A program made the position numbers and the translations under genes. Below, one piece after another: positions 202 to 12,899 of a stretch of DNA of 12,899 bases. The notes beneath the pieces are model-generated. The model made no database searches, had not been told where the DNA came from, and saw nothing but the letters and a program-made list of their open reading frames with translations. Numbering within the stretch: the stretch's first letter is position 1; each line of letters begins with the position of its first letter. Source of the DNA: a bacterium (GTDB taxonomy: Bacteria > RBG-13-66-14); assembly GCA_035528375.1 (NCBI GenBank), contig DATKYS010000081.1, positions 1 to 12,899 on the forward strand, in the 5' to 3' direction.

Positions 202-470
202 CCTTCGCCGTCTTCAACACTTAGTAGGGGCCGACCGACCGGTAGGTCCGTGTTTTATTAGGCAGCCCTCACCCTAACCCTTTCTCACAGGGAGAGGGAA
301 ATCGCGGGCGACCGTGGACGGTCGCCCCTACGGATTTGATTCGCGATTGTTCGTAGGGGCGGGTGTCCACACCCGCCCGTTTTAACCCCTCACCCTAACC
401 CGTAGGCGGGCCGCCGATGGGCCCGTGGAGCAATTTTCGCACAAACCGCGCGGTTTTTCTAAGGAGGATG
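202..470. repeat. Repeat-rich intergenic gap upstream of the protease gene
   Basis: I see no gene here. The gap holds a composite of short repeats: a CCCTCACCCTAACCC unit at 266-280 running into a GGGAGAGGG segment (290-298), a perfect palindrome at 306-327 (arms GGGCGACCGT and ACGGTCGCCC around GG), a second perfect palindrome at 358-379 (arms GGGCGGGTGT and ACACCCGCCC around CC), and another CCCTCACCCTAACCC at 387-401. A degenerate palindrome lies near 224-249. The same composite recurs at 1360-1489. AAACCGCGCGGTTT (443-456) is a small palindrome just before the ribosome binding site of the protease gene. Confidence 0.8.
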
Positions 471-1292
471 ATGCCCAATCCCTTCGACCCCCTTCCCCCG
501 AACGGGGAGGACAGCCCCCCCCGGTTCCGCAAGGAAATCGCCCGGGCCGGGACGTTCCAGCATCCCGACGGCGAGCTGGAGTTCACCCCGGAGCGGCTGG
601 CGGCCTGGGTGGAGGTCTTCCGCCAGGCGCGGGAGGCCGGTATACAGATCCCCGTCCCCCTGAACCACGGCTCCGAGCCCACGGACAACGCCGGATGGGT
701 GGAGGACCTGGAGCTCTCCGACGACGGCGAGCGGCTCTACGCCATTCTCGTCATCACCCGGCCCGAGGTGGGCGGGCTCATCGAGGGCGGGACCATCCGC
801 CACACCTCCCTGGCCCTGGGGCCCCTGGCCGACGATGCGGGCAACTACTGGGAGGACGCCATTCTCGAGGTGAGCCTGGTCACCGAGCCGCACATCCGGC
901 GCCAGGAGCCCTTCGTCACCCTCACCGGGGTGCGGGAGCTGGCGGTGGAGCTGGCGGCCAGTCGCAGGAAGAACCACGAGCTTTCCAGCTACCTGGACGC
1001 TGAGCGTCTCCGGCGGCTGGAGGAGATGGTGGATGGGCTCGTCGCCCGCGGGCGCCTCTCCCCGGACCGGCGCGCCGACGTGTTGGAGCTCGCCGCGGGC
1101 CTTCCCGGCGACGACGACCGGGAGCGGTTTCTGGCCAGCTACGACCGGCCGCGGGTGAGACCCGGCGCCCTGACCGTTTCCGCGCGCCGCGAGGGGGCCG
1201 ACCCCGAGCTGGAGTCCGTGGCACGGCGCTTCGGACTGGAGCCGGCGGCCCTGGCCTACTACCTGGAGAACACCGCCGGACAGGGGGGATAG
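471..1292 (+). CDS. Mu gpI-like prohead protease with C-terminal scaffold region
   Basis: The product (273 residues from this start) resembles the Mu gpI family of phage proteases, which process the capsid precursor and whose C-terminus acts as head scaffold. Evidence: an N-terminal segment FQHPDGELEFTPERL followed by a proline-histidine stretch (IPVPLNHGSEPTDNAGWVED), then GLIEGGTIRHTSLAL, matching the family pattern of a conserved H and G-W followed by an R..S segment. The C-terminal ~110 residues are charged and helical (LDAERLRRLEEMVDGLVARG), as in the scaffold part. AAGGAGG at 461-467 selects ATG 471; ATG 468 overlaps that site's edge and the in-frame ATG 417 lacks one. The next genes, decoration and gpT-like capsid, fit the Mu head order. 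The exact catalytic residues cannot be assigned by eye. Confidence 0.8.
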   Translation: MPNPFDPLPPNGEDSPPRFRKEIARAGTFQHPDGELEFTPERLAAWVEVFRQAREAGIQIPVPLNHGSEPTDNAGWVEDLELSDDGERLYAILVITRPEVGGLIEGGTIRHTSLALGPLADDAGNYWEDAILEVSLVTEPHIRRQEPFVTLTGVRELAVELAASRRKNHELSSYLDAERLRRLEEMVDGLVARGRLSPDRRADVLELAAGLPGDDDRERFLASYDRPRVRPGALTVSARREGADPELESVARRFGLEPAALAYYLENTAGQGG

Positions 1293-1790
1293 CGCCAACC
1301 TGAATGTAGGGCGGGGACTTTAGTCCCCGCTGCGGCCGCTTTCACGTTCCCGGCCTCGACCCTCACCCTAACCCGTAGGCTAGCCTCTCCCTGGGAGGGA
1401 GAGGGGACATGCGGGCGACTGTGGACGGTCGCCCCTACGGGTGTGATATGCGACGAATGGACGTAGGGGCGGGTGTCCACACCCGCCCGCATTCCGTCCC
1501 TCACCGCAGAAAAAGCGGCACACGGAGTTGCCGCCCTACGAGTTGTCTTTTGGGGGCTCTATAGCCCGCCCATTTTTTCACCCCTCACCCCGGCCCGTCG
1601 GCGCGCCGCTCCCACGGGGAGAGGGGGACCGTTATCCTGGCCCTCACCCTGACGCATAGGTACGCCTCCCTCCAGAAAGTGGAGGGGGAATCTGGTGGCT
1701 CTCACCCTAAATCCCGTGAGTAAATGAATCTCTCACGGGGAGAGAAAAACTCGAAAGAAAAACCCGATTACCGGTAACCTGGAGGTTCCC
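1293..1790. repeat. 498-base gap filled with palindromic repeats
   Basis: No gene is supported here although it lies inside the head operon. Palindromes include 1311-1330 (arms GCGGGGACT and AGTCCCCGC, loop TT), 1384-1404 (arms CCTCTCCCT and AGGGAGAGG), 1413-1434 (second copy of the 306-327 element, one G-T wobble), 1468-1489 (exact second copy of the 358-379 element), 1514-1536 (GCGGCA with TGCCGC), 1554-1567 (GGGCT/AGCCC) and 1713-1739 (arms CCCGTGAG and CTCACGGG). CCCTCACCCT-type units start at 1360, 1582, 1641 and 1699. A 10-base perfect palindrome TTACCGGTAA (1768-1777) sits immediately before the ribosome binding site (GGAGG, 1781-1785) of the next gene and could be an operator, which is speculation. 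Confidence 0.8.
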
Positions 1791-2210
1791 ATGGCTCTGA
1801 CAACCAACCGTTACGACGAGCGCTTCGCCGCTGGCTGGCAGCTCCCCTTCCCCGTCGCCGCGCAGACGACGGTCTACAAGGGTGCGCTGGTCTGCCTCGA
1901 CGCGAGCGGCTACCTCGTCCCCGCCGCCGACACCGCCGGCCTGCGCTTCGTGGGCGTGGCCCGGGACTCAGGCGACAACTCCTCGGGCTTCGACGGCGAC
2001 ACCGAGGTCGTCGTGGTGACCCAGGGCTCCATCGTGGTCGCCAAGTCCGGCGCCGCCGCCGGAGACGTGGGCGCCAGCGCCTTCTGCTCCGACGACGAGA
2101 CCGTGGCGCTCTCCACCGAGAACGAGGTCTACGCCGGGCTCGTCGTATCCGTGAGCGACTCCGGCCACGTCCGTCTCCGCTTCGACGCCGGCGACTGCGC
2201 CCCGGCTTAA
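1791..2210 (+). CDS. Head decoration (capsid cement) protein
   Basis: This 139-residue protein lies directly before the major capsid gene, the usual place for a decoration or cement protein that binds the outside of the head. The sequence is rich in beta-strand-forming residues and alanine/glycine turns, with the pattern VYKGALVCLDASGYLVPAAD, then LRFVGVARDSGDN and VVVTQGSIVVAKSGAAAGD. This resembles the DUF2190-like or gpD-like cement proteins, in which a short beta-barrel repeats a value/property style of motif. GGAGG at 1781-1785 precedes ATG 1791 by five bases. There are no membrane segments or signal peptide. Family assignment is by pattern and context; it could alternatively be a Mu-type minor head protein of unknown role. 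Confidence 0.75.
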   Translation: MALTTNRYDERFAAGWQLPFPVAAQTTVYKGALVCLDASGYLVPAADTAGLRFVGVARDSGDNSSGFDGDTEVVVVTQGSIVVAKSGAAAGDVGASAFCSDDETVALSTENEVYAGLVVSVSDSGHVRLRFDAGDCAPA

Positions 2211-2229
2211 CCCCCACAAGGAGGATCCG

Positions 2230-3153
2230 ATGCCCTTCACCACCGCCAGCGACCTCTCCCCGAAGATGCTCGAGGGGGTCGTGCGCACCGAATTTTTCCG
2301 CGCCTACCACGAGCTCCGGGACACCGGCTGGCAGCGCTACACCACCGTGGTCTCGTCGGGTGCCGCCGAGGAGTACTACGACTGGCTGCGCCTGCTGGGC
2401 GACGTGCGGGAGTGGATCGGCGACCGGGTGATCAACCAGGGCGTGGCCGAGCGCTACTCCATCCGCAACAAGACCTGGGAGTTCGGCTTCTACCTGGATC
2501 GCTCCGCCGTGGAGGACGACCAGTCGGGCCAGATCGGCCTGGCCATCACCGCCGCGGCCCAGCGCGCCGCCGAGCACCAGGCGCGCCTCGTGACCGAGGT
2601 GCTCGAGGCCGCCTTCACCGACGCCTGCTACGACGGCGAGGCCTTCTTCTCCGACTCCCACCCCCTGGACTCGGGCGGCTCCTTCGGCAACTACACCGAC
2701 GCGCTTCTGGACACGGAGTCGCTGCGGGGCGGCTTCTCGGCGCTGATGGGGATGCTGCGCTCCGACGGCGCCCCCTGGGGGAACGTGGTTTCCAAACAGA
2801 ACACCACCCTCATGGTCCCGCCGGCGCTCTACTTCACCGCCCTGGAGCTGACCCAGCACCCCCACTACTCCGCGGGTGACCCGGAGAACAACCCCCTGGC
2901 CGGACTCTTCGACGTGGCGCTCAACCCCTACCTCACCAGCGAGACCGCCTGGTACCTGTTGCAGACGACCGAGCCCTTGAAGCCGCTCGTCTTCCAGCGG
3001 CGCACCGAGCTGGAGCTCACCGCCCAGACCGACCCGGCCACCGGGGACGTGGTCTTCCGCAACGACCTCTACGCCTTCGGCACCCGCCAGCGCTACAACG
3101 CCGGCTACACCTTCCCCCAGCTGGCCTACGCCAGCGACGGCACCGAGTCTTAG
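2230..3153 (+). CDS. Major capsid protein, Mu gpT family
   Basis: This protein forms the icosahedral shell and has the HK97-type fold expected of the Mu gpT family. The 307 residues match the usual length of about 300. Family hallmarks visible are the N-terminus MPFTTASDLSPKMLEG, a central region KTWEFGFYLDRSAVEDDQ, and the loop DGEAFFSDSHPLDSGGSFGN at about residues 135-155, which corresponds to the conserved G..LF...HP...G..N segment of gpT. Near the C-terminus FRNDLYAFGTRQRYNAGY is also typical. AAGGAGG (2218-2224) lies five bases before ATG 2230. It follows the decoration gene by only 19 bases, so the two are surely co-transcribed. This is the most secure call in the window. Confidence 0.93.
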   Translation: MPFTTASDLSPKMLEGVVRTEFFRAYHELRDTGWQRYTTVVSSGAAEEYYDWLRLLGDVREWIGDRVINQGVAERYSIRNKTWEFGFYLDRSAVEDDQSGQIGLAITAAAQRAAEHQARLVTEVLEAAFTDACYDGEAFFSDSHPLDSGGSFGNYTDALLDTESLRGGFSALMGMLRSDGAPWGNVVSKQNTTLMVPPALYFTALELTQHPHYSAGDPENNPLAGLFDVALNPYLTSETAWYLLQTTEPLKPLVFQRRTELELTAQTDPATGDVVFRNDLYAFGTRQRYNAGYTFPQLAYASDGTES

Positions 3154-3212
3154 CGGCTCACGGGTGGACCGTGGGTCCACCCCGCACTCATGCATTCATC
3201 CGAGGAGGGACC

Positions 3213-3641
3213 TTGGCCTACGCCCAAGTCAGCGAGCTGCGCGAATTTCTGGGCGACGCCTTCGCCGCGGTGGAGGACGAAACCCTCGCCGGGTACCTGG
3301 ACTACGCCTCCTCCGAGATAGACACCCGGCTCTCGCCCCATTTCGCCCTGCTGCCCTTCGACCCGGTTCCGGCGCTCGTGGGGCGGATTTGCCTCTATCG
3401 GGCGGCGGCCGAGGTGCTGGTCGTCTACTACGGCCGGGCCGGGGCCGGGACCGAGGACGGGCGCGCGGAGCGCTTCCGCGACGATTACGAGACACTCGTC
3501 GCCCTGCTCCTCCGCGATCCGGCGCTGCTGGGCGTGGAGCTGGGTCCCCGGCGCGGCGATGTCGCCTTCTTCCACGACGACCCGGACCACCCGGGCCTCT
3601 CCCGCTTCGGGCGGTTCCCCGGCGGGGAGGGGTCATGGTAG
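3213..3641 (+). CDS. gp36-like head-tail connector (DUF1320 type)
   Basis: A 142-residue protein resembling the Mu gp36 (DUF1320) family, located right after the capsid gene as in Mu-like phages and expected to act at the head-tail joint. I choose TTG 3213 because AGGAGG (3203-3208) lies just upstream and because the product then begins (M)AYAQVSELREFLGD, matching the family start of AY....dL...; an in-frame ATG at 3171 would add 14 unrelated residues and has no good ribosome binding site. YLDYASSEIDTRLSPHFALL and LVGRICLYRAAAEVLVVYYG fit the helical pattern of the family, where a residue run near the first helix pair is followed by D..I...L. The stop overlaps the next start (ATGGTAG), showing translational coupling. 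Confidence 0.8.
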   Translation: MAYAQVSELREFLGDAFAAVEDETLAGYLDYASSEIDTRLSPHFALLPFDPVPALVGRICLYRAAAEVLVVYYGRAGAGTEDGRAERFRDDYETLVALLLRDPALLGVELGPRRGDVAFFHDDPDHPGLSRFGRFPGGEGSW

Positions 3642-4108
3642 ACCTCGCCCGGCACCACTCCATGGTCGTCGGCGCCCTGGCCGCGGGGCTCTTCACCGGC
3701 GCCCGCGTCACCTACGACCCGGGGCTCCTGCACCGATCGGCCGAGCTGCCCGCCGCGGGCCTGGTCTCCATTTCACCGCAGGGAGTGGAGCTCCTCGACG
3801 GTTCCCGCGCCCTCGTCGAGCTGGAGGTCACCCTGAGCCTGAGTAAGCTCGGCGACGAGGACCTCATCTGGGACCTGACCTCCCGCTGCGCCTCCCTGTG
3901 GCGCCTCCTCTCCCGGGCGGCGGAGGATGGCCTGCCCTACGCCTACACCTACGGGGAGAGCGAGATTTCCGGCCACACCGCCGAGGAGTGGCTCAGTCTG
4001 GAAAGCCTGACGGCGCGGTACTGGCGCACCTCCCTGGTGACCCCGCCCCGGCCCGCCTACCACCACGCGACGATCGAGGTCGCCCTGGCGGTCGTCGCCC
4101 CCCGTTGA
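3635..4108 (+). CDS. Probable tail terminator / tail-completion protein
   Basis: A 157-residue protein whose ATG overlaps the end of the gp36-like gene by seven bases; a GGGGAGG run (3624-3630) lies just upstream. The sequence has alternating strands and helices: LVSISPQGVELLDGSRALVE and LEVTLSLSKLGDEDLIWDL, then SRCASLWRLLSRAAEDGLPYAY, and a final beta-rich end HHATIEVALAVVAPR. A protein of this size between the connector and the tail tube gene usually closes the head neck or caps the tail tube (equivalent of lambda gpU or Mu gp37). I do not recognise a specific family; the role rests on gene order and fold-like pattern. No membrane segment is seen despite the hydrophobic run near residue 10-20. 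Confidence 0.55.
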   Translation: MVDLARHHSMVVGALAAGLFTGARVTYDPGLLHRSAELPAAGLVSISPQGVELLDGSRALVELEVTLSLSKLGDEDLIWDLTSRCASLWRLLSRAAEDGLPYAYTYGESEISGHTAEEWLSLESLTARYWRTSLVTPPRPAYHHATIEVALAVVAPR

Positions 4109-4123
4109 AGAAAGGACCGACCG

Positions 4124-4870
4124 ATGCCTTCCACCGTGCTCACGGGCAAGGGCTGCATCGTGGACGTGACCACCGGCCTCGTCTACGGCGGCGTGCAGGA
4201 GTTCAAGCTCACCAACGAGCTGGAGACCAAGAGCTTCCCCGCGGGGGAGCGCTGGAGCTCGTACACCGTGCCCGTCGGGGTCAACTGGCGGGGCGAGATC
4301 GCCTTCAAGGCCCTGGACGCGGCCACGCTCGGGGTCGTCCTCGGCGGCCAGAGCTCCACGGGGCGCGTGCTGGAGGTGCTCGACGAGGAGGCGGTCGTCC
4401 CCGAGGAGGGGCCCCGCACGGTCACTCTGGAGCACGACGACAACGTGGCGCTGTCCGAGACGGTGAAGGACGCCGCGGGGCGCTCCTTCCAGAGGGTCGA
4501 GGATGATCCCGCTTCCGGGGAGTACGCGATTGACGGCGACACCCTGACCTTCTCCGCCGCCGACGCGGGCGCGGAGGTCCGCCTCTCGTACCTCCGTCTG
4601 GACCCGAACGCCGGGGACCGGCTCGTGGTCGGCCCCGAGGACATCCCCAAAAAGTTCTCGCTCTACGGCGTGCTCCGCGGCCACGACCTGATAGAAGGTC
4701 GGGCGCCCGAGGCCCGTTTCGCAGTGTACCTGGCCGACTGCTGCCGGACCGGGGAGTTCCGCTTCGGCGCTCCGGCGGACGGCCTGGGCGGATTTACCCT
4801 CTCCTTCACCGCCCACAACGACCAGCCCGGCGACGTTGTCTTCTACCTGCCACCGCGGGAGACGGCTTAG
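4124..4870 (+). CDS. Major tail tube protein with inserted domain
   Basis: The 248-residue product has the layout of a tail tube protein: an N-terminal beta strand set (GKGCIVDVTTGLVYGGVQEF), a long-loop part (LTNELETKSFPAGERW), and a C-terminal set FTLSFTAHNDQPGDVVFYL. It stacks as hexameric rings forming the tail tube. Residues about 90-165 (RTVTLEHDDNVALSETVKD, EYAIDGDTLTFSAADAGAEV, RLSYLRL) look like the accessory beta domain seen in several phage tail proteins, which explains the length above the usual 150-200. AAAGGA at 4112-4117 precedes ATG 4124. The next gene starts on the base after its stop, as tail tube and chaperone genes usually do. Confidence 0.75.
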   Translation: MPSTVLTGKGCIVDVTTGLVYGGVQEFKLTNELETKSFPAGERWSSYTVPVGVNWRGEIAFKALDAATLGVVLGGQSSTGRVLEVLDEEAVVPEEGPRTVTLEHDDNVALSETVKDAAGRSFQRVEDDPASGEYAIDGDTLTFSAADAGAEVRLSYLRLDPNAGDRLVVGPEDIPKKFSLYGVLRGHDLIEGRAPEARFAVYLADCCRTGEFRFGAPADGLGGFTLSFTAHNDQPGDVVFYLPPRETA

Positions 4871-5308
4871 ATGAAGCGCGAATCGAAGGACCGGGAGCTC
4901 TTCCGCCTGGCCGGCGCTGAGCTGGACGGCGAGGACGCGGACGTCCAAGACGCGGTGGAGCCCGAGGAGCTGCTGCCCCCGGGGAGTGTCGAAATCGGCG
5001 GTCGGCTTTACCCCGAGCCCACCTGCTACGCCTACGTTCTCCTGGAGCGGGTCGCGTCCGGGCGCCTGCCCTACGAGCTCACCGCGACCGAGCGCGCCCT
5101 GTACCTGTTGTGGGTCGTCCTGCACCAGGAGAGCCCCGCCGAGCTGGCCGCGCTGACCCAGCGTCCCCTGGCCGAGGCCGAGCTCGCCCGGTTCGCCGCC
5201 GACCACACCCCCGCGGAGCTGCGCTCGTTTTTGGAGGGTTACCTGCAATCGGCTTCGAGCGCGGTTAAAAAAAAAGCCCCGCGACCGGCGACCCCGGTTC
5301 GGGAGTAG
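4871..5308 (+). CDS. Tail assembly chaperone (gpG-like, 0-frame product)
   Basis: A 145-residue acidic protein located between the tail tube and tape-measure genes, the position of the lambda gpG-like chaperone that holds the tape measure during tail assembly. It is mainly helical (PTCYAYVLLERVASGRLPYE, TERALYLLWVVLHQESPAEL) and ends SSAVKKKAPRPATPVRE. The KKK is encoded by nine consecutive A residues (5267-5275), exactly where chaperone genes carry a -1 frameshift site. The start ATG 4871 follows the previous stop directly, with a GGGAG (4858-4862) as ribosome binding site. Sequence similarity to gpG is not recognisable; the call rests on gene order, helical pattern and the slippery run. Confidence 0.75.
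   Translation: MKRESKDRELFRLAGAELDGEDADVQDAVEPEELLPPGSVEIGGRLYPEPTCYAYVLLERVASGRLPYELTATERALYLLWVVLHQESPAELAALTQRPLAEAELARFAADHTPAELRSFLEGYLQSASSAVKKKAPRPATPVRE
5267..5298 (+). promoter_or_regulatory. Probable -1 ribosomal frameshift site
   Basis: Codons AAA AAA AAA (5267-5275) form an A AAA AAA slippery heptamer in the chaperone's reading frame. Eight bases downstream is a small hairpin, ACCGG (5284-5288) with CCGGT (5294-5298), placed where stimulatory stems of -1 frameshift sites lie. Slippage leads into a GC3-biased open frame that runs to TGA 5491-5493. Conserved frameshifting in dsDNA phage tail chaperone genes is established; its operation here is inference. Transcriptional slippage on the A run is an alternative. 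Confidence 0.6.
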
Positions 5309-5493
5309 GTCTCGTGGAAAAGCTGGCCGCCGTCGCCCGGTTCGCCGGAACCACCATCGAGAGGGTCCTCTTCCGCTGGCCCGTGCGCCGGGCCGTCGCC
5401 TACTCCCGCCTGATGGCGGACCTGCGGCGGGCCGGGGAGAGGGCACTTTGGCGGAACACCCCACCGAGGAGCAGCCTTGAATCGCGCGTTTGA
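5276..5493 (+). CDS. Tail chaperone C-terminal extension (gpT-like), overlapping frame
   Basis: In the -1 frame relative to the chaperone, bases 5275-5493 are open and encode a basic helical segment including FAGTTIERVLFRWPVRRAVA and YSRLMADLRRAGERALWR. Third positions are almost all G or C, so this is real coding sequence although short. Two routes are possible: fusion to the chaperone by -1 slippage at the nine-A run, giving a product of about 207 residues as with lambda gpGT, or an independent start at GTG 5314, which has GGGAG at 5301-5305 and would give 59 residues. The end overlaps the start of the tape-measure gene by 17 bases. I favour the frameshift because of the slippery run and the conserved gene order. 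Confidence 0.6.
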
Positions 5494-6100
5494 ACAGGAT
5501 TCCGACGCCCTGCGCCGCAGCGCCCAGGCCGTGGAGCGGGCGGCGGAAAAGCTCGAAAAATCGGCCGAGAAGCTGGGCTCCACCGACCGAGGGGGTCGTT
5601 CCGGGGCCGACGGGGACCTGGATCGAGGCCTGACCGCCTTCGAGGAGGGCCTGACGAAGACCGTCGTCGGCGTCACCACCGACCTCTTCGGCGACCTGAA
5701 GCTCGGGTTCGGCGACCTCTTCTCGGGGCTCTTCGGCCTCATGTCCAGCCTCGTGACCTCGAAGCTGGGGTTCTTCGGCGACCTGCTGGAGCTCATCCTG
5801 CCCTTCGCCGGGGGCGGCTTCGTCAGCTCGCCCACCCTGGCCCTCCTGGGTGAGGGGGGACCGGAGTACGTCCTTCCCGAGGCGAGCCTCCACCGCGCCC
5901 TCGAGGGCGGTCTGGCGGGAATGGCGGGACTGCTGGCCGACGTCCACGGCGCGGCCCCTTCCGCGACCGGGGGAGACGGGCCGGTTTTGCGCACGACCAC
6001 CGTCCAGCACTTCCACTACGCCCCGGTCATCGGCTCGCTGGATAAGCTGGACGCCTACAACCAGCAGGCCGACGCCGGCGCCGCCGGGCGGGGGCTATAA
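5477..6100 (+). CDS. Very short tape-measure-like protein
   Basis: The 207-residue product carries the glycine/proline segment FAGGG (110-114) followed by PTLALLGEGGPEYVLPE (about 119-135), which is the conserved C-terminal signature of many phage tape-measure proteins. Residues 1-35 look like a coiled coil (RRSAQAVERAAEKLEKSAEK), and 70-112 form a hydrophobic helical stretch (LGFGDLFSGLFGLMSSL) like the internal tape-measure helices. Tape measures set tail length and are usually more than 600 residues, so this one is reduced to little more than its ends. The start is TTG 5477, with AGGAG at 5467-5471. It follows the chaperone as expected. Its TAA stop lies on the T tract of the minus-strand terminator (6099-6120). 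Confidence 0.7.
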   Translation: MNRAFEQDSDALRRSAQAVERAAEKLEKSAEKLGSTDRGGRSGADGDLDRGLTAFEEGLTKTVVGVTTDLFGDLKLGFGDLFSGLFGLMSSLVTSKLGFFGDLLELILPFAGGGFVSSPTLALLGEGGPEYVLPEASLHRALEGGLAGMAGLLADVHGAAPSATGGDGPVLRTTTVQHFHYAPVIGSLDKLDAYNQQADAGAAGRGL

Positions 6101-6120
6101 AAAAGCACCCCGAAGGGTGC
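6099..6120 (-). terminator. Intrinsic terminator with TTCG loop, minus strand
   Basis: Read on the minus strand, GCACCC, TTCG, GGGTGC forms a six-pair GC-rich stem with the very stable C(UUCG)G loop, directly followed by six T's (6104-6099). On the + strand there is no T tract after the stem, so it acts for minus-strand transcription. It ends the tRNA-like RNA gene starting near 6349 and lies against the stop codon of the tape-measure gene. Confidence 0.8.
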
Positions 6121-6133
6121 AGTGGAGGACGGG

Positions 6134-6202
6134 CGGAGGACGCGGGAATCGAACCCGATAACCAAGCTCGCAACCTGGTCTCAGCCCTGCTGCTCGTCCT
6201 CC
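6134..6202 (-). tRNA. Divergent tRNA or tRNA-like element, anticodon GCG
   Basis: On the minus strand the 5' GGAGGAC (6202-6196) and 3' GTCCTCC (6141-6135) make a perfect seven-pair acceptor stem followed by G at the discriminator position and then CCC rather than encoded CCA. The T arm is clear: CGGG, loop TTCGATT, CCCG, with the fifth pair mismatched. The anticodon arm is CCAGG, loop TTGCGAG, CTTGG, giving T33 and anticodon GCG, which would read the arginine codon CGC. The D-arm region (17 bases between acceptor and anticodon stems) lacks T8 and A14 and offers only a short CAGC/GCTG hairpin, and the total is 69 bases, so this is not a canonical tRNA. It may be a degraded or specialised tRNA-like domain. 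Confidence 0.5.
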
Positions 6203-6355
6203 TTAGACGGTCGCTCACATTAGGGCACCAGGCTTGACTTCCCGCAGCGGCCGAAGGAAAGATTAATACAGGGCGACCTCCATGTCAAGTAGGAGCGCCC
6301 TCCGTTTGGAAGGCGCACCGAGCAACAGAGGACCAGGACTTGCGAGCCACAAAGT

Positions 6356-6384
6356 AATATAGTCCGGTTTTTCCGGATTGTCAA
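6356..6384 (-). promoter_or_regulatory. Sigma70-type promoter for the minus-strand RNA
   Basis: Read on the minus strand: perfect -35 TTGACA (6384-6379), a 17-base spacer, and -10 TATATT (6361-6356, one mismatch to TATAAT). Transcription would begin near 6349. The spacer contains the dyad TCCGG-AAAAA-CCGGA (6377-6363), which could be a repressor site. The promoter lies just in front of, and pointing away from, the hub gene start at 6392. Confidence 0.65.
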
Positions 6385-6391
6385 GGTAAAA

Positions 6392-9300
6392 ATGGAACGG
6401 ATCAACGCCCCAGCTCAGACCGTGGAAATCCGCCTCGACTCCGGCGCGTGGGTGGACATCACCACCGCCGTCGAGGGCTTCGTCGTGCCCTCCTGGCGCG
6501 TGGAGGCCAAGACCGGCGAGATCATCTGCGACCAGGTTCGCGCCCGGGTCATCGTCCCGCTCCTCGAGGGGTTGGGCGTGACCATCCGTCGGGTACTCGA
6601 AGCGGGGCGGATAGACTTCCGCCTTTCCTTCCGCGAGGCGACGAGCGGCATGGCGCCCGTCGGCGCGACCCCGGCTTTCCGCGGGCGGGTGGTGGAGCTG
6701 GCGCGGCTGACCAAGCTCAGGGCCGGGGACACCCTCGATCTCACCGTCCACGACCTTCTGAAGGCGGGGAACGAATTACAGCCGTCGGCGCCCATCCTCA
6801 TCTCCACCGAGCCCGCGCGCTACGACGCGGTGATTCGGGAATTGGCCGCCGAGATGGACTTGACCGTGGGCGATTTCCACGGGACCGGTATCTCGGCGAC
6901 GACCCCCTACGTCACCCACCACCCCCGGCCGGGTGGGGTGGACGCCACGGTCCAAATCCGGGGCCTGGCCTGGTGGCCGGTTCACGGGTTGCTCCTGTGC
7001 GGAGCCGGAGAGAGCATCTTCGGCTATTCACCCTCGACGGGGGCGAGCTACGAGCTGGCCGTCCCCCCCTGGCCCATTCCGCTCAACCCGACGCGGCAGA
7101 TAGAGACCATTTGGGTGGACGGGACCGATGTTTACGGCGTGAATCTCCCCCTCCCCGACGCGGCCGCGACCGCCCCCGGCTACATCATCAAGGCCGACCT
7201 GTCGGGATTCACCCCGCACATTGTCGCCCCGCCGGTACATTACACCGTTTACACCGAGCCGTTCAAGCTGTGGAACGCGGGAATGGCGCGGATAAAGTCT
7301 AGGGCGGCGGAATGGCGGCTGCCAAAGCCGGTGGGCGCGGGCGATTTATTCATCTACAAGGGGAACGCCATCGGCCTGGCCGGGCCGGTGGAAAAGGACT
7401 ACGCGCCCGGTCCAACCGTTTTCGACGCGGAGTTTACATTAGGTGAAGATACCCACATCTACCGGGCATTCGCCCGGGATTTCTCTCGCGTGCTAGGCAA
7501 GCCGGGTATCCATCGTGAATACGCGTCGGAAAACCCGCTCATGTACGGTCGTAATCTCTTCCTCCCCGAGGAAACCGCCGTCGGTGTGGAGTTCACCGAA
7601 AGCAACCGGAGGCCCGCCGACGTGACGGCCTACCGGATGCCGGGGCCTTTGGCCTACTACATCCCGCGGTTCAGCCCCGACGGAGACGATTGGGTCTACG
7701 ATGTCGGCAGTGGGTTGCCCTACGCCGAAAATGCGGGCAAGCTCCCATGTACCTTGCCGGCTGGATACTATGCCTTCATAAATCACGGCGGAAGCCGCAG
7801 GAATTATTCCGGCCCCCCGGAGCCCGAGAAGGTATCAGCCTTCGAGATTTCCTTCACCCGGGCGCAACGCCGCCCCTCGGTAGTCTTTACCTCGGCGGGT
7901 GATAAAATCTTTACCGCCGAGGACGACGTGGACATCTCCACCCTGACCAATCCCCTGGGACCCCTGGCGGACAACAATACCAATGAATATGAGAGGCTTT
8001 ACTACCGGGATTTGACCGCGGGAACACGGTGGTTGATAGCGGGGTTTCCCAGCCGCGCACATTCCGTGCGAATGGCCCGCCTGGGTGATTCCGAGGCTTT
8101 GGTGATATTCGCCCGAGAGGATGGGATGCCCGGGTCCTACAACCACACGGCGCCGCTGACCAGGCTGGTCCTCAGCCGGGTGCGTAAGTCTTATCCCCTC
8201 TGGGACTTGACCAGCCTCGGGGGCTGGACGATCAACGACGACCCGAACGCCTACTACCACTACACCCCGACGAGCCTGGCTCATTTAAATGGGAAGGCTT
8301 ACGTCGGCTACACCCGGACCACCCAGCGATTCGTCACCCTGGAGGGCGCCCCCGTCACCCGGGCTTACGTTGATTGGGAGCAGGACGGATTCGTCTTCAA
8401 CATGGGCCATTCCATCGTCGAGGTCGGTGCCTATCTCATGGATGACATCAAGGTCGGGGACCGCATCCGTTTGTGGCCGAAAAAGCCCAAACACCTCCCC
8501 TACGCGCCGCTACCCCGGACCATCACCGACATCGAGTGGATAAATGCAGATATGGTGACCAGGCTCACGGTGAGCCCGCCTTTGGATTGCTCGAACGGGG
8601 CTTTACGCCCGGAAGATCGGATTATCGAGCTTCTCAGCCCGCTGGAAAGCACTCACACCAAGGGTATCGAGGAGTACGACTCCGGGTATGGAGATCAATT
8701 CGACGGCCCGCCGACCCTCCAGGTCGAGGCCGAGGCCCGCGAAATCCGTACCTACTTCCGGGCCTACGACCTCATTACGGATACCTGGGGCGCCCCGCTC
8801 GACTTCGGCCGCGAGGACGTGACCGAGGAACTCACCGCCGAGGACGACCCGGAGAACCAACGGGCGACGCTCTCCCTCTCGAACGCCTTCCCCGACCCGG
8901 CGCTCATCACGGTGAAGCTGGGCGATTCCCCGGTTTCCTTCACCGTGGATACCGACGAACTCTACGAAACGGGAGACTGCATCCTGGCGCTCTCCCGGCG
9001 GTACGTCGGGCTGGAGTTGACCGTCGCCTATTCTTACTGGGATGCGTCGCTGCGGTTCACCGAGATGACCACGGTCGGCTCCACCGTCTACTACACCCGG
9101 GGGAAGGAGCTGCGGTCTTATTCCGGCTCCGTGGTCGGGCACGGCGAGGTCCACTACCAAGCCTCGGGGACCGCTTCACCCCTGGTGATTCCGGCGGCGG
9201 TGTCCCCCACAACCGTCTACGGCGTGGCCGAAGGCGGCGGGAACTACCCCTACCAGCTTTCGGTGAACCACTCGCTCAACGTCGGCGACCGCTCCGGGTG

Positions 9301-9829
9301 GGCCGGGAAGGGCCTGGCCTCCTGCCTGGCCGAGGTGGCCCTGGCGCTCGGGTGCATCTTCTGGGTGGACGGCAGCGGGGTGATCCACTTCGTCCCGAGG
9401 GGCTGGCGGCGGGGGAGAACCACCGTCCCCCCCGAGGAAGTGCTGGACTACCAGGAGCCGGGGGCCTGGCAGCGGGCGGCGCCGGCGGTGACCGTCGGTT
9501 GGCCGGGCGGCGAGGAGACGGCTGGGGTGCTCTCCGCCACGAGGCTCACCGACAACGAGAGCTTCAGCGCGCCGCTGGTGACCTCGGCGGGTTGGGCACG
9601 CCTGCTGGCGAACCTTCTCTATATGGCTAAGAGCAACCGCGGCAGCCGGGCCGAGGTGACGCTGGCCGGGTTGCGGCTGGACATCGAGACCGGCGATGGG
9701 TTGAGACTCGGGCTCGCCGGGGCGACCTCGCCCGACGACGGCTGCGGGGTCGTGGTGGGAATCGAGCCGCGATTGAACTTCGGCGAGGCGGCGACGCGGT
9801 TCGCTCTGGAGTTAGAGGATGGTACATAA
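6392..9829 (+). CDS. Tail hub / baseplate protein with large insertion
   Basis: A 1145-residue protein following the tape-measure gene, the place of the tail hub. Residues 1-130 (VEIRLDSGAWVDITTAVEGF, then FRGRVVELARLTKLRAGDTL) look like the first hub domain. Residues about 945-1145 (WAGKGLASCLAEVALALGC, FWVDGSGVIHFVPRGW) resemble the second domain of gp27/gp44-like hub proteins. Between them, about residues 185-940 contain short strand-turn repeats (GESIFGYSPSTGASYEL, then IIKADLSGFTPHIV, SAGDKIFTAEDDVD) that look like beta-propeller or other all-beta blades, perhaps receptor- or glycan-binding. No lysozyme or peptidase motif is seen. Bases 6900-8700 look a little less GC-rich than the ends. 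ATG 6392 has only a weak AAGG (6384-6387) upstream. Confidence 0.65.
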   Translation: MERINAPAQTVEIRLDSGAWVDITTAVEGFVVPSWRVEAKTGEIICDQVRARVIVPLLEGLGVTIRRVLEAGRIDFRLSFREATSGMAPVGATPAFRGRVVELARLTKLRAGDTLDLTVHDLLKAGNELQPSAPILISTEPARYDAVIRELAAEMDLTVGDFHGTGISATTPYVTHHPRPGGVDATVQIRGLAWWPVHGLLLCGAGESIFGYSPSTGASYELAVPPWPIPLNPTRQIETIWVDGTDVYGVNLPLPDAAATAPGYIIKADLSGFTPHIVAPPVHYTVYTEPFKLWNAGMARIKSRAAEWRLPKPVGAGDLFIYKGNAIGLAGPVEKDYAPGPTVFDAEFTLGEDTHIYRAFARDFSRVLGKPGIHREYASENPLMYGRNLFLPEETAVGVEFTESNRRPADVTAYRMPGPLAYYIPRFSPDGDDWVYDVGSGLPYAENAGKLPCTLPAGYYAFINHGGSRRNYSGPPEPEKVSAFEISFTRAQRRPSVVFTSAGDKIFTAEDDVDISTLTNPLGPLADNNTNEYERLYYRDLTAGTRWLIAGFPSRAHSVRMARLGDSEALVIFAREDGMPGSYNHTAPLTRLVLSRVRKSYPLWDLTSLGGWTINDDPNAYYHYTPTSLAHLNGKAYVGYTRTTQRFVTLEGAPVTRAYVDWEQDGFVFNMGHSIVEVGAYLMDDIKVGDRIRLWPKKPKHLPYAPLPRTITDIEWINADMVTRLTVSPPLDCSNGALRPEDRIIELLSPLESTHTKGIEEYDSGYGDQFDGPPTLQVEAEAREIRTYFRAYDLITDTWGAPLDFGREDVTEELTAEDDPENQRATLSLSNAFPDPALITVKLGDSPVSFTVDTDELYETGDCILALSRRYVGLELTVAYSYWDASLRFTEMTTVGSTVYYTRGKELRSYSGSVVGHGEVHYQASGTASPLVIPAAVSPTTVYGVAEGGGNYPYQLSVNHSLNVGDRSGWAGKGLASCLAEVALALGCIFWVDGSGVIHFVPRGWRRGRTTVPPEEVLDYQEPGAWQRAAPAVTVGWPGGEETAGVLSATRLTDNESFSAPLVTSAGWARLLANLLYMAKSNRGSRAEVTLAGLRLDIETGDGLRLGLAGATSPDDGCGVVVGIEPRLNFGEAATRFALELEDGT

Positions 9830-9872
9830 AAGAAATATTATCATGCATTTATGACATTAACGTGATTTTGAT

Positions 9873-9893
9873 TCAAGATTTTCTTGATTTTTT
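9873..9893 (+). terminator. Weak AT-rich intrinsic terminator after the hub gene
   Basis: TCAAGA (9873-9878), loop TTT, TCTTGA (9882-9887), followed by six T's (9888-9893). The stem has only two G-C pairs, so it is weak. It lies 44 bases after the hub stop and would end the late operon before the cassette. Its right arm overlaps the proposed -35 box of the cassette promoter. Confidence 0.45.
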
Positions 9894-9912
9894 CTGTAAT
9901 TACGTGTAAACT
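9884..9912 (+). promoter_or_regulatory. Promoter of the XRE-ImmA / PIN cassette
   Basis: TTGATT (9884-9889), a 17-base spacer and TAAACT (9907-9912), each four of six to consensus, lie 23 bases before ATG 9936. AGGAGGG (9926-9932) is the ribosome binding site. XRE-ImmA proteins commonly regulate their own promoter, so an operator is expected here, but I see no clear dyad beyond the overlapping TCAAGA/TCTTGA repeat. Confidence 0.5.
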
Positions 9913-9935
9913 AGAGCAGGTAGTTAGGAGGGAAT

Positions 9936-11102
9936 ATGCGTAGCTTGAGCAGCAGCATTGATAAAGATATCGGTTTGCGCATTAAGGAAGTCCGGACCGA
10001 TGTAGGAATAACGCAAGGGGATCTGGCTAAAGAAATAGGAGTTGGCTCTGCTCAGATTATTTCTGATATAGAGCAGGGAAAAAGAGCGTTAAAGGCTAGT
10101 GAATTAAATAAATTAGCGAATGCCCTTTTTAAAGATCCTGTTTTCTTTTTAAAAATTGACAAATCTAAAGGTAAACCGGCTCTTTTATACAGGGGCGATG
10201 AACGATGTGAGGTGGGTAGCCTTGGTAAAGTCGGGGCATACTTTATTCAGAAGTGTGAACAATATCGTCATCTAGAAACTTTGCTTGATAAAAAACCAGC
10301 ATCACAGCTCTATCAAGAAGAAATTAATATCACCCATACTAGGGAAGACTATGCTTGGGCGGATAAACTAGGTAACCAAACACGTAAATTGTTTCAATTA
10401 GGTGCGCGGCCCGCGCGGGTTCTTTGCAGCATACTCGAGCAAATTTATAATATAAAGATTTGGTTTAAAAGAGGTATGGATAAATCGGCATGTGCAACCA
10501 TCACAGATTTTGGTCCTGCAATTTTAATAAATAGTGAAGATTCTCCGTGGAGACGTAATTACGATTTAGCACATGAATTATTTCATTTGATCACATGGGA
10601 GTCTTTTATTAAACAAGCAGACAACGATCCAGATTGGCATGATCAGCTTGAAAAATTAGCTGATGTCTTCGCCTCGACCTTATTGTTACCTGAGGAAGAG
10701 ATTAGAAGTGAATTCGCATCTAGAATACGAAATGATAGTATCTCCTATCTCGATTTGATTAATATTGCACGTGATTTTGAGGTTTCGACTTCAGCTTTAC
10801 TTTGGCGCTTTGTAAATATTGGTCTCCTAAAGCGAAAAGACATCTTGAGCGCCCTCCAAGATAGGTATTTCAAAGCCCAAGATAAATCGGAGCGCGTTGG
10901 TGATTGGCTGCAGCCCCCCGATTTTCCTGATAGGTTTGTTCAATTAGCGATCACTGCGCATAATATTGGTAGGCTTGCAAAAGGTCAATTAGCTCGCTAT
11001 CTCCAAACGTCTATACCAGAGGTTGAAGATGTAGTAAGAGAATACGGTTATAACCTGGGGATTATTAATGGCAGCGATACAACATCTAGCTTTAGATGCT
11101 AA
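9936..11102 (+). CDS. XRE-family regulator fused to ImmA/IrrE metallopeptidase
   Basis: The 388-residue protein begins with a helix-turn-helix of XRE type at about residues 13-62 (IGLRIKEVRTDVGITQGDLA, then IGVGSAQIISDIEQGKRAL). The middle carries HELFH (213-217), the zinc-binding HExxH of the ImmA/IrrE family, with LEKLADVFASTLLLPEEE (from about 238) as the usual following segment that supplies the third ligand. In ICEBs1 and Deinococcus relatives such proteins cleave repressors; XRE fusions act as antitoxin-like regulators in several two-gene systems. A C-terminal helical region (about 270-388) has no recognised family. It overlaps the PIN gene by 35 bases, implying coupled translation. AT-rich codon use marks it as foreign to the phage genes. 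The XRE and ImmA calls are secure; the substrate is unknown. Confidence 0.88.
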   Translation: MRSLSSSIDKDIGLRIKEVRTDVGITQGDLAKEIGVGSAQIISDIEQGKRALKASELNKLANALFKDPVFFLKIDKSKGKPALLYRGDERCEVGSLGKVGAYFIQKCEQYRHLETLLDKKPASQLYQEEINITHTREDYAWADKLGNQTRKLFQLGARPARVLCSILEQIYNIKIWFKRGMDKSACATITDFGPAILINSEDSPWRRNYDLAHELFHLITWESFIKQADNDPDWHDQLEKLADVFASTLLLPEEEIRSEFASRIRNDSISYLDLINIARDFEVSTSALLWRFVNIGLLKRKDILSALQDRYFKAQDKSERVGDWLQPPDFPDRFVQLAITAHNIGRLAKGQLARYLQTSIPEVEDVVREYGYNLGIINGSDTTSSFRC

Positions 11103-11592
11103 TATTATAATCGAAGCATTTAAACTTAATGCATGGAAACCCCTTGCAGATAAATTCAATATTGTCGTTACTAGTACAATCATTGAAGAGGCATCTTTTT
11201 TTATAATAGACAGTAAAAGGATCAGTATATCAAAGAGTGAATTCGGTAAATGCACACAAATAGACCCTAATCTTCAGGAATTACAAGATATTGTCGACAT
11301 TTTTGATAATGTTCTATTACAATCGGTTGAACAAGGCGAAATTGAAATATTAGCTTTGGTTAAAGCAGGGAAATTACCTGAGGAGTGTAGAATTTGTACT
11401 TCTGATGGACCAGCCGTTATTGCTGCATGTCTGCTTGAGTATGGGAGTTTTTGTGTATCTTTTGAATCGCTATTACGTAAAATAGGTTTTACAAAAAGTT
11501 TAGATTATCAATTTACAGAAGAGTTTTTAACAAGAAAGGTGACAGAAGGAAAACAAAATAGGATCCAAGGAGTAGGTTTACGCAAGCGATAG
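11068..11592 (+). CDS. PIN-domain nuclease, probable toxin partner
   Basis: The 174-residue protein has the PIN-domain arrangement: LALDANIIIEAF with D10, an acidic pair E40-E41 after VVTSTII, GEIEILAL with E91 and E93, and CTSDGPAVIAAC with D113. These are the acidic positions that bind metal in VapC-type ribonucleases. The length is above the usual 130-150 because of a charged extension at the C-terminus (about 150-174, ending RKR). Its start lies inside the end of the XRE-ImmA gene, with a weak GGGG upstream, so it is likely translated by coupling. Together they resemble XRE-ImmA plus PIN toxin-antitoxin-like pairs, in which the first protein represses and neutralises the second. RNA targeting is inferred from the family only. 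A terminator follows at 11622. Confidence 0.75.
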   Translation: MAAIQHLALDANIIIEAFKLNAWKPLADKFNIVVTSTIIEEASFFIIDSKRISISKSEFGKCTQIDPNLQELQDIVDIFDNVLLQSVEQGEIEILALVKAGKLPEECRICTSDGPAVIAACLLEYGSFCVSFESLLRKIGFTKSLDYQFTEEFLTRKVTEGKQNRIQGVGLRKR

Positions 11593-11621
11593 AATAAAAT
11601 TGTATGTTTTTACGATGAGGC

Positions 11622-11644
11622 GCCATCTTAGGGATGGCTTTTTT
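11622..11644 (+). terminator. Intrinsic terminator of the cassette
   Basis: GCCATC (11622-11627), loop TTAGG, GATGGC (11633-11638), then six T's (11639-11644). It is a good rho-independent terminator 30 bases after the PIN stop. The next phage gene starts at 11657, so it must be transcribed by read-through, antitermination or an unseen promoter. Confidence 0.8.
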
Positions 11645-11656
11645 AGTGGAGGATTG

Positions 11657-12226
11657 ATGCCCTGGGGCGACACGGATTCGGGCGGCAAGTTGCGGCCCAA
11701 GGTCAGTTTCTCCGGCGGAGCGATGGGCATCCCCGACCTCACCTTCCCGGAGTTCGGGTTTACCCGGCTGGACGAGGATTGGGTGCCGGAGAAGATAGTC
11801 AACGCGGCGGCGGACGCCTCCCGGACCGTCTCCGAGAGCATCGTCGGCTACCGCGGCGTCTTCACCGTTCACTACGCCTACCTCTCCGCGATAGATCGGC
11901 GGCGCATTGCCCGCATCGTCAACGTCGGCGGCCGGGTGTACTTCTACCCCCACTCCGACGTGTTGGAAAACTACCTCTGTCGGGTGTCGTCCACCACGGG
12001 CATCATGCAGCAGCTCGGCGGAAGAACCAGCGGCTACGGGCCGCTGTCCATCACCTTCGAGACGGTCACGCTCCGCGCCTCGGTGCCCTGCGAGGATGAA
12101 GGACGGTCGCACTTCTCCGACAAGGACCTGGCCTACGGCCCGACGGACGAGATTTGCTGCTTCTCCGACAAGGACCTGGCCTACGACCCCGGCGATAAGA
12201 TCGGGTGGTTCAACAAGGCGGAGTGA
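11657..12226 (+). CDS. Baseplate / tail-tip protein with C-terminal 16-residue repeat
   Basis: A 189-residue GC-rich protein. GGAGG (11647-11651) selects ATG 11657. An upstream in-frame ATG at 11600 lies before the terminator and lacks a site. The body has a beta-rich pattern similar to tail-tip and distal-tail proteins (GYRGVFTVHYAYLSAIDRR, then NVGGRVYFYPHSDVLENYLC, TSGYGPLSITFETVTL). I do not recognise a named family. The C-terminus is a two-copy repeat of 16 residues (FSDKDLAYGPTDEICC and FSDKDLAYDPGDKIGW) plus FNKAE, encoded by near-identical 25-base blocks at 12113-12137 and 12161-12185. Such repeats may be an expanding receptor-contact segment. Separation from the hub gene by the AT-rich cassette suggests the cassette split the tail module. 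Confidence 0.5.
   Translation: MPWGDTDSGGKLRPKVSFSGGAMGIPDLTFPEFGFTRLDEDWVPEKIVNAAADASRTVSESIVGYRGVFTVHYAYLSAIDRRRIARIVNVGGRVYFYPHSDVLENYLCRVSSTTGIMQQLGGRTSGYGPLSITFETVTLRASVPCEDEGRSHFSDKDLAYGPTDEICCFSDKDLAYDPGDKIGWFNKAE
12113..12185 (+). repeat. 48-base tandem repeat in the tail-tip gene
   Basis: A 25-base block beginning TTCTCCGACAAGGACCTGG occurs at 12113-12137 and again identically at 12161-12185, a period of 48 bases or 16 codons. The remaining 23 bases of each unit differ. This suggests recent duplication with relaxed selection between the conserved blocks. Confidence 0.85.
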
Positions 12227-12363: not shown

Positions 12364-12389
12364 GTGTGTGGATAGAAGAGGAGGCGCTA

Positions 12390-12722
12390 GTGTTTCCAGG
12401 AACTCGCATTACTTGGCGTTTGCCCTACGTTGTGACAAAAAAGGCCAAATGGACGGTTGCATGCTGTCCCGTATTAGACCTTTTCGCGCAGGGAGGCGAC
12501 GAAAAAGAAGCGAAAAGGAACCTTGTTGACATGATTCAGTTGTTTATTGAGTCGTGTTATGAAAGAAACACGCTTGACGAAGCGTTAAAAGAATGCGGAT
12601 TTAAGGTATTCCATAAAGAAGACACCCCGATGGGGGTTGCCCCGCTTAAAATAGAGCCCAACTACCTTAATGTGCAGTTACCCCTGAGCGTGGTAAAGTC
12701 GGCTACAAGATGCCGCGCATAG
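12390..12722 (+). CDS. hicB: HicB-like antitoxin
   Basis: The 110-residue protein has the HicB partial RNase H-like fold pattern: WTVACCPVLDLFAQGGDEKE followed by KRNLVDMIQLFIES and then TLDEALKECGF, with a C-terminal LNVQLPLSVVKSATRCRA that is common in this family. HicB neutralises the HicA mRNA interferase. AGGAGG (12379-12384) lies five bases before GTG 12390; the upstream in-frame GTG 12366 sits within the promoter region and has no site. The gene overlaps by 13 bases an ATG-started frame (12710) that looks like the beginning of HicA. Composition is less GC-rich than the phage genes, so it is probably acquired separately. It could also act as a solitary HicB-like regulator. Confidence 0.75.
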   Translation: MFPGTRITWRLPYVVTKKAKWTVACCPVLDLFAQGGDEKEAKRNLVDMIQLFIESCYERNTLDEALKECGFKVFHKEDTPMGVAPLKIEPNYLNVQLPLSVVKSATRCRA

Positions 12723-12899
12723 TACCTGTGCATTGGCGGGTACTTGAGTGTATTTTTAAAGGGATCGTCTTACCTAAACGGACCATTATCCGTGTTCATA
12801 ACGCTAGAGACACGTTGATTGAGGAGTGTTATCCTGCCACAGATGTGAGGAGGCAAAAGTGGCAGGAAAGGCGTCATCCGACCGGCACATCAAGTGCCC
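12710..12899 (+). pseudogene. HicA-like start, probably decayed (runs off the window)
   Basis: ATG 12710 overlaps the hicB end and starts MPRIVPVHWRVLECIFKG, which closely matches the N-terminus of HicA toxins linked to this HicB type. After residue 18 the frame reads IVLPKRTIIRVHNARD and loses the expected GSH or GDH motif. In the two other frames of the same stretch I can read DHY (around 12780) and VFIT (around 12793), as if small indels broke a GDHYVFI-like segment. The frame is open to the window end, so a full-length but diverged gene is not excluded. GTG 12859 inside it has AGGAGG (12848-12853) and may start another gene in a different frame. Confidence 0.4.
12859..12899 (+). CDS. Possible start of a further gene (partial)
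   Basis: GTG 12859 is preceded by AGGAGG (12848-12853) at five bases and opens MAGKASSDRHIKCP to the window end. This is too little for identification. An inverted repeat, CCTGCCAC (12833-12840) with GTGGCAGG (12859-12866), spans the ribosome binding site and could fold over it. Confidence 0.25.
   Translation, partial: MAGKASSDRHIKC

Follow-up and report, generated by a model that had tools for sequence, protein, structure and literature searches.

A moron-type insertion probably brought a solitary, phage-type, compact tRNA(Arg-GCG)-like gene, together with its own promoter and terminator, into the late operon of a Mu-like and probably domesticated cluster. That cluster occupies most of the window, i.e., the whole 12,899-nt stretch of DNA that we analyzed. 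Present in the sequence itself are the insertion, the promoter and terminator motifs, and a compact 8/4 cloverleaf with a GCG anticodon (Table 1). A preliminary description of this DNA had reported these features, and all of them were recovered at their place on the minus strand, but two of its interpretations, that of an antisense RNA and that of a structure unlike phage tRNAs, did not hold. The element looks like a lone phage-carried tRNA, perhaps slightly decayed, and not like a new type of antisense RNA.

Table 1. Coordinates of the features within and around the insertion (positions in the window)
Feature	Position	Strand	Remarks
Upstream tail gene, tape-measure-like	5477–6100	+	Start uncertain
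Genome-specific insertion, ~290 bp	6101–6391	-	Between tape-measure stop and hub start; ends uncertain by ~6 bp (A-runs)
Intrinsic terminator	6099–6120	-	GCACCC-TTCG-GGGTGC-T6; six T's
Compact 8/4 tRNA-like domain	6132–6202	-	Anticodon GCG (6171–6169), G73, CCC in place of CCA
Possible second promoter, P2	6260–6288	-	TTGACA-17-TAATCT; TTGACA at 6288–6283; in the style of host tRNA promoters
Leader hairpin	6292–6319	-	Nine-pair core (6295–6316), AAAC loop; -21.6 kcal/mol
Promoter P1	6356–6384	-	TTGACA-17-TATATT; -35 box 6384–6379, -10 box 6361–6356
Dyad in P1 spacer	6363–6377		TCCGG-AAAAA-CCGGA (TCCGGAAAAACCGGA); possible operator
Downstream tail gene, hub-like	6392–9829	+	Conserved in the family

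RESULTS

A genome-specific insertion separates two abutting tail genes

The stop codon of the tape-measure-like gene abuts or overlaps the start codon of the hub-like gene in all five relatives with a readable junction (G001, G002, G003, G005, and G006). DNA identity to the window in the upstream gene is 88% for G001 and 91% for G002, the nearest two relatives, and the flanks are 88 to 91% identical. In the alignments with G001, G002, and G003, the upstream match stopped at positions 6078 to 6100 and the downstream match began at 6390 to 6392, while between the two the relatives had 0 to 14 bp of their own DNA. Their junction sequences (GGGTTGTGATGG, GGGCTGTAATGG, and GACTACTAAATGG) consist of stop and start codons that touch or overlap, and the two codons also overlap at the same junction in G005 and G006. 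Because the genes are adjacent in five relatives and loss in all five would be far less likely, we conclude that the ~290 bp were gained in the lineage of the genome under study (G000). On these alignments the piece is an insertion specific to G000, a moron-like cargo. The gap between the two genes had been described as not empty, and an insertion with a full set of signals was indeed found there. A comparison of the gap in relatives had been proposed as a check; the element was absent from five of five, leaving no stems there whose conservation could be compared, and its absence strengthened the case for an independent unit.

The insertion is clean, with A-runs at both junctions, and a target duplication (TAAAAA on both sides) is possible. 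The G+C content is 57% at positions 6151 to 6450, compared with approximately 70% in the surroundings. The start site of the hub gene was retained, and the AAGG upstream of it comes from the insert. No copy of the insert was detected in its own genome, in 14 genomes of the phylum, in phages, or in plasmids, and no homologue of the whole unit was detected in any set searched, which we count against our preferred reading.

Hairpins near both ends and a clean insertion at A-rich junctions would be compatible with a nonautonomous element of the IS200/IS605 type. The terminator hairpin and the promoter-spacer dyad would then be its end hairpins, and the tRNA a passenger or an accident. We consider this highly improbable, as the hairpins are fully accounted for as a terminator and an operator-like dyad, and the multicopy pattern of a MITE was not observed: neither the genome itself nor 13 others of the phylum contains a second copy.

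The insert carries signals of a self-contained transcription unit

P1 matches the sigma-70-like consensus at 11 of 12 positions and is the sole site of at least 11/12 in the window. Dinucleotide shuffles of the window indicated that 0.01 sites of this quality are expected by chance, and such sites arose in 2 of 2,000 shuffles of the insert. The dyad in the P1 spacer has no second copy with the same spacer in the window. The TTGACA box of P2 had been overlooked in the preliminary description. At the other end of the unit, the terminator is one of two strong terminators in the window, against 0.007 expected. The predicted transcript of 255 nt folds better than shuffled sequences (z, -3.7). Complementarity between the leader and the tRNA was at chance level: it was equaled in 108 of 300 shuffles of the leader and in 90 of 300 shuffles of the tRNA sequence. 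A switch in which the leader pairs to the anticodon arm was rejected, since shuffles do equally well.

Promoters of the form TTGAC-17-TAnnnT were found in 13 of the 33 host tRNA genes tested, mostly 8 to 16 nt before the tRNA, and several host tRNA genes end in similar terminators, with a hairpin and a T-run. The insert has the same promoter and terminator grammar, but its tRNA starts 57 and 153 nt past the two candidate promoters.

Thus, the near-perfect promoter with a dyad in its spacer, the nine-pair hairpin, and the strong terminator with a TTCG loop and six T's that had been claimed are all present on the minus strand. These motifs, and further the absence of the insertion from five relatives, support the proposal of a self-contained minus-strand transcription unit. 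Its designation as an antisense RNA was rejected. The terminator places the 3' end at position 6099, within the tape-measure stop codon, and the unit is located between genes. The overlap with the gene of a sense transcript that characterizes cis-antisense RNAs was not found, and overlap with the mRNA would occur only on read-through past the terminator.

The predicted transcript contains a compact 8/4 cloverleaf

ARAGORN predicted a complete cloverleaf of tRNA-Arg(gcg) in the 3' part of the unit. The same program made 3 calls on 200 shuffled windows, corresponding to approximately 0.0003 calls expected per 290 bp. The ARAGORN brackets and ViennaRNA concurred on an 8-bp acceptor stem, a 4-bp T stem, a standard T loop (TTCGATT), and the anticodon stem, which has six pairs and a 7-nt loop, TTGCGAG, according to ARAGORN and extra pairs on either side according to ViennaRNA. 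The tRNA-like 3' domain with a perfect acceptor stem and T loop that had been described was therefore confirmed by both programs. The D arm can be drawn with 3 bp and a 5-nt loop or with 4 bp and a 3-nt loop (AGG), and its loop contains GG. The variable loop is 3 nt long, and U8 is replaced by a paired G. Canonical tRNAs have a 7-bp acceptor stem and a 5-bp T stem, U8, and a D loop of 7 to 11 nt, whereas this structure has an 8/4 arrangement, G8, and a D loop of 3 to 5 nt. The discriminator is a G followed by CCC, so that no CCA is encoded, in contrast with nearly all the host tRNAs typed.

In many arginine tRNAs, including those of Escherichia coli, A20 in the D loop is an identity base. The D loop of the insert tRNA has no A after the GG, unlike host Arg tRNAs, which have A there. 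Furthermore, the cloverleaf is not the predicted fold of the unprocessed transcript (-97.2 kcal/mol when forced, versus -112.5 kcal/mol when free). With the D-loop A lacking and another fold predicted for the full precursor, charging is doubtful, and both decay and mimicry are retained as rival readings.

It may be, as the preliminary description had suggested in speaking of a degenerate tRNA, that the insert carries a decaying imported phage tRNA, uncharged or unused, whose promoter and terminator were kept by chance after a recent insertion. The loss of U8, the shortened D arm, the missing CCA, and the disfavored cloverleaf in the precursor would fit such decay, as would the occurrence of the element in a single genome. 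Nevertheless, the acceptor, anticodon, and T stems are fully paired, the T loop, U33, and A37 are intact, as are the promoter and the terminator, and D loops just as small are known from array tRNAs. We regard decay as a possible but rather unlikely explanation.

The cloverleaf is closer to phage and array tRNAs than to host tRNAs

We searched for relatives of the RNA with a single-sequence covariance model of the insert cloverleaf. The best other match in its own genome was weak, with 18.3 bits compared with 103.7 for the cloverleaf itself, and the best matches in the host phylum were ordinary Gly, Met, Lys, and Ser tRNAs at 20 to 28 bits. The D loop was 7 nt or longer in each of the 36 host tRNAs typed. 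Judging from these comparisons, the insert tRNA is not derived from a host tRNA, and the earlier statement that it is not an ordinary host tRNA is borne out, as no similar host tRNA was found. An attachment-site fragment of a host tRNA was likewise rejected, since no host tRNA resembles the cloverleaf and both of its halves are present.

The best match (46.2 bits; E value of 1.9e-9 per genome) lay in an array of 29 tRNAs (L208) and was a tRNA-Gly(gcc) whose D loop, TGG, has 3 nt; in the search of 396 genomes from the phylum of an Acidobacteria MAG, nothing else came close. This array (L208:2858-6148, G301 contig 75) is dense, includes several compact tRNAs, and has an HNH-like gene beside part of it. 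Next came a tRNA-His (L111; 44.7 bits) on a 182-kb viral contig, whose D loop has 5 nt and whose T stem has 4 bp; it was found among 100 loci, nearly all viral, that had been picked for other tRNA matches. Together, the viral set and the array comprise 1,035 tRNAs, a biased sample, in which D loops of 5 nt or less and 8/4 branches occur 14 times each. Compact D arms with loops of 3 to 5 nt and 8/4 stems thus occur in phage tRNAs, contrary to the view that the noncanonical D arm sets the element apart from them. The structure is nearer to phage and mobile-array tRNAs than to host tRNAs, although covariance matches of this kind are a likeness of shape among tRNAs and not proof of common descent.

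The best covariance match among 396 genomes of the Frigoribacterium phylum reached 35 bits. Pattern scans of viral contigs and GTDB genomes yielded segments from within serine tRNAs, repeats of Frigoribacterium whose 3' end is tRNA-like, or chance matches, among them one chance-level match to the leader hairpin. The tRNA-like repeats stand in tandem copies in Frigoribacterium genomes (L183:89-247 and L191), and their 3' end is of the serine type (GGAGGGCG...GGGTTCGAATCCCACGCCCTCCGCC).

The host cluster is probably a domesticated Mu-like element with further cargo

The cluster, at positions 417 to 12226, has a Mu-like gpT head gene (L034-L039 and L209-L212). In this small phylum of five families, 13 of 14 genomes have the gene, each at a single locus, and in G010 it is split into two pieces. 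Identity of this gene follows kinship, with 82 to 94% within a family and 30 to 36% across families. A single-locus head gene whose identity follows kinship makes the cluster read as domesticated and vertically inherited. It is probably a domesticated Mu-like element and possibly an undescribed gene transfer agent.

A second genome-specific insertion (approximately 9821 to 11646) is located exactly between the hub gene and the next tail gene. It has a low G+C content and harbors genes for an HTH/ImmA-type regulator and a PIN-like protein (11068 to 11592), as well as its own strong terminator (11622 to 11638), and it is absent from G001 and G003. The regulator resembles spr1629 but scores below the cut-off, and the PIN-like protein, whose label comes from the preliminary description, has no match in Pfam or NCBIfam. 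The DNA that follows the hub gene in G002 (L047:4182-4353) differs at this junction, and for this reason the site may be a hot spot of cargo insertion. Near the contig end, at positions 12366 to 12898, two small overlapping open reading frames resemble a HicB/HicA-type pair by eye, the first of which has no NCBIfam match.

Both the tRNA and the HTH/PIN insertions lie in one operon of one genome, which raises the possibility of a nontranslating tRNA mimic, acting as a decoy or regulator for a tRNA nuclease, a synthetase, or a tRNA-binding regulator and possibly tied to the HTH/PIN module 3.4 kb downstream. The long structured leader would be in keeping with such a role. In addition, according to a review (PMC7609411), the 8/4 tRNA-like RNAs reported most often include those with a GCG anticodon, which ranks among the leading anticodons of 8/4 allo-tRNAs. 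Certain 8/4 RNAs are unusable in E. coli, and the review relates a suggestion that these may accompany transposons or toxin-antitoxin systems. However, each of the two modules was inserted separately and at its own junction, neither occurs in any relative, and the pairing between leader and anticodon is at chance level. A mimic is unlikely, and the role of a decoy for tRNA-cutting toxins raised in the preliminary description remains speculative, given that the PIN gene belongs to a separate insertion. We give slightly less credence still to a new kind of phage cargo, either an uncharged tRNA mimic with promoter and terminator that would protect the element or its host as a toxin decoy, or an allo-tRNA that would recode CGC.

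DISCUSSION

The imported solitary phage-type tRNA that we favor would be transcribed against the late operon, either constitutively or under the control of a repressor acting via the spacer dyad, and transcription would stop at the tape-measure stop codon. RNase P would then cut the 5' end, followed by trimming and by CCA addition by a host enzyme. If the RNA is active, its likeliest role would be that of an extra tRNA reading CGC and CGU, distinct from the host Arg-ACG, which could survive host tRNA nucleases; partial decay of this role is nearly as probable. The Arg codons used most in the cluster are CGC and CGG (84 and 90 of 214, respectively), and among the host tRNAs typed Arg-ACG alone reads CGC. 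Phage tRNAs counter tRNA-cutting defenses (PMC10264068, PMC11555353), and by analogy a GCG tRNA whose anticodon loop differs could serve as a nuclease-resistant spare.

If the RNA is active, a virus-derived cluster carries a lone mini-tRNA as a cargo gene of its own. With a single gene to study, it would offer a simple way to test whether phages carry tRNAs for codon supply or for nuclease resistance, and a test of the minimum size of a bacterial tRNA D arm. It would also show that RNA genes, besides protein genes, can act as morons. If dead, the element would still be a tidy example of the entry of cargo into a domesticated phage cluster.

Comparison with known systems

Searches of the minus strand with Rfam models, another proposed check, gave no match at curated thresholds. 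At relaxed thresholds tRNA-Sec (RF01852) was the best match, with 24.6 bits against a cut-off of 47, and the tRNA model (RF00005) remained below its gathering score. A tmRNA was rejected, as ARAGORN found none. The insert RNA shares a long acceptor stem, G73, and a T arm with tRNA-Sec but differs from it by its score, its GCG anticodon, and the lack of a variable arm. The host selC gene (L013) is elsewhere, intact, and dissimilar, and the candidate of a tRNA-Sec or a selC remnant was rejected.

With 8/4 allo-tRNAs (Mukai et al. 2017, per PMC7609411), as defined in that review, the insert RNA has in common the 12-bp acceptor branch arranged as 8/4, a lengthened anticodon stem, and the GCG anticodon. 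In contrast with them, it has a 3-nt variable loop in place of a longer variable arm, lacks the set of serine identity elements, and has a much smaller D arm. By its fold it is an 8/4 tRNA-like RNA, but on account of the variable arm we do not class it with the allo-tRNAs.

The compact phage and array tRNAs, such as the tRNA-His of L111 and the tRNA-Gly of L208, are similarly foreign to the host tRNA set. They share with the insert RNA a small GG-containing D loop, a short variable loop, an anticodon stem of 6 to 7 bp, and a T stem of 4 to 5 bp. The insert tRNA differs from them in being solitary rather than arrayed, in its antiparallel orientation to the late genes, and in having its own long leader, promoter, and terminator. 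As in phage morons, there is a clean insertion between tail genes that abut in relatives, with a different G+C content and, as far as motifs tell, a promoter and a terminator of its own. Unlike in those morons, the predicted product is an RNA and not a protein, and the host cluster is probably domesticated.
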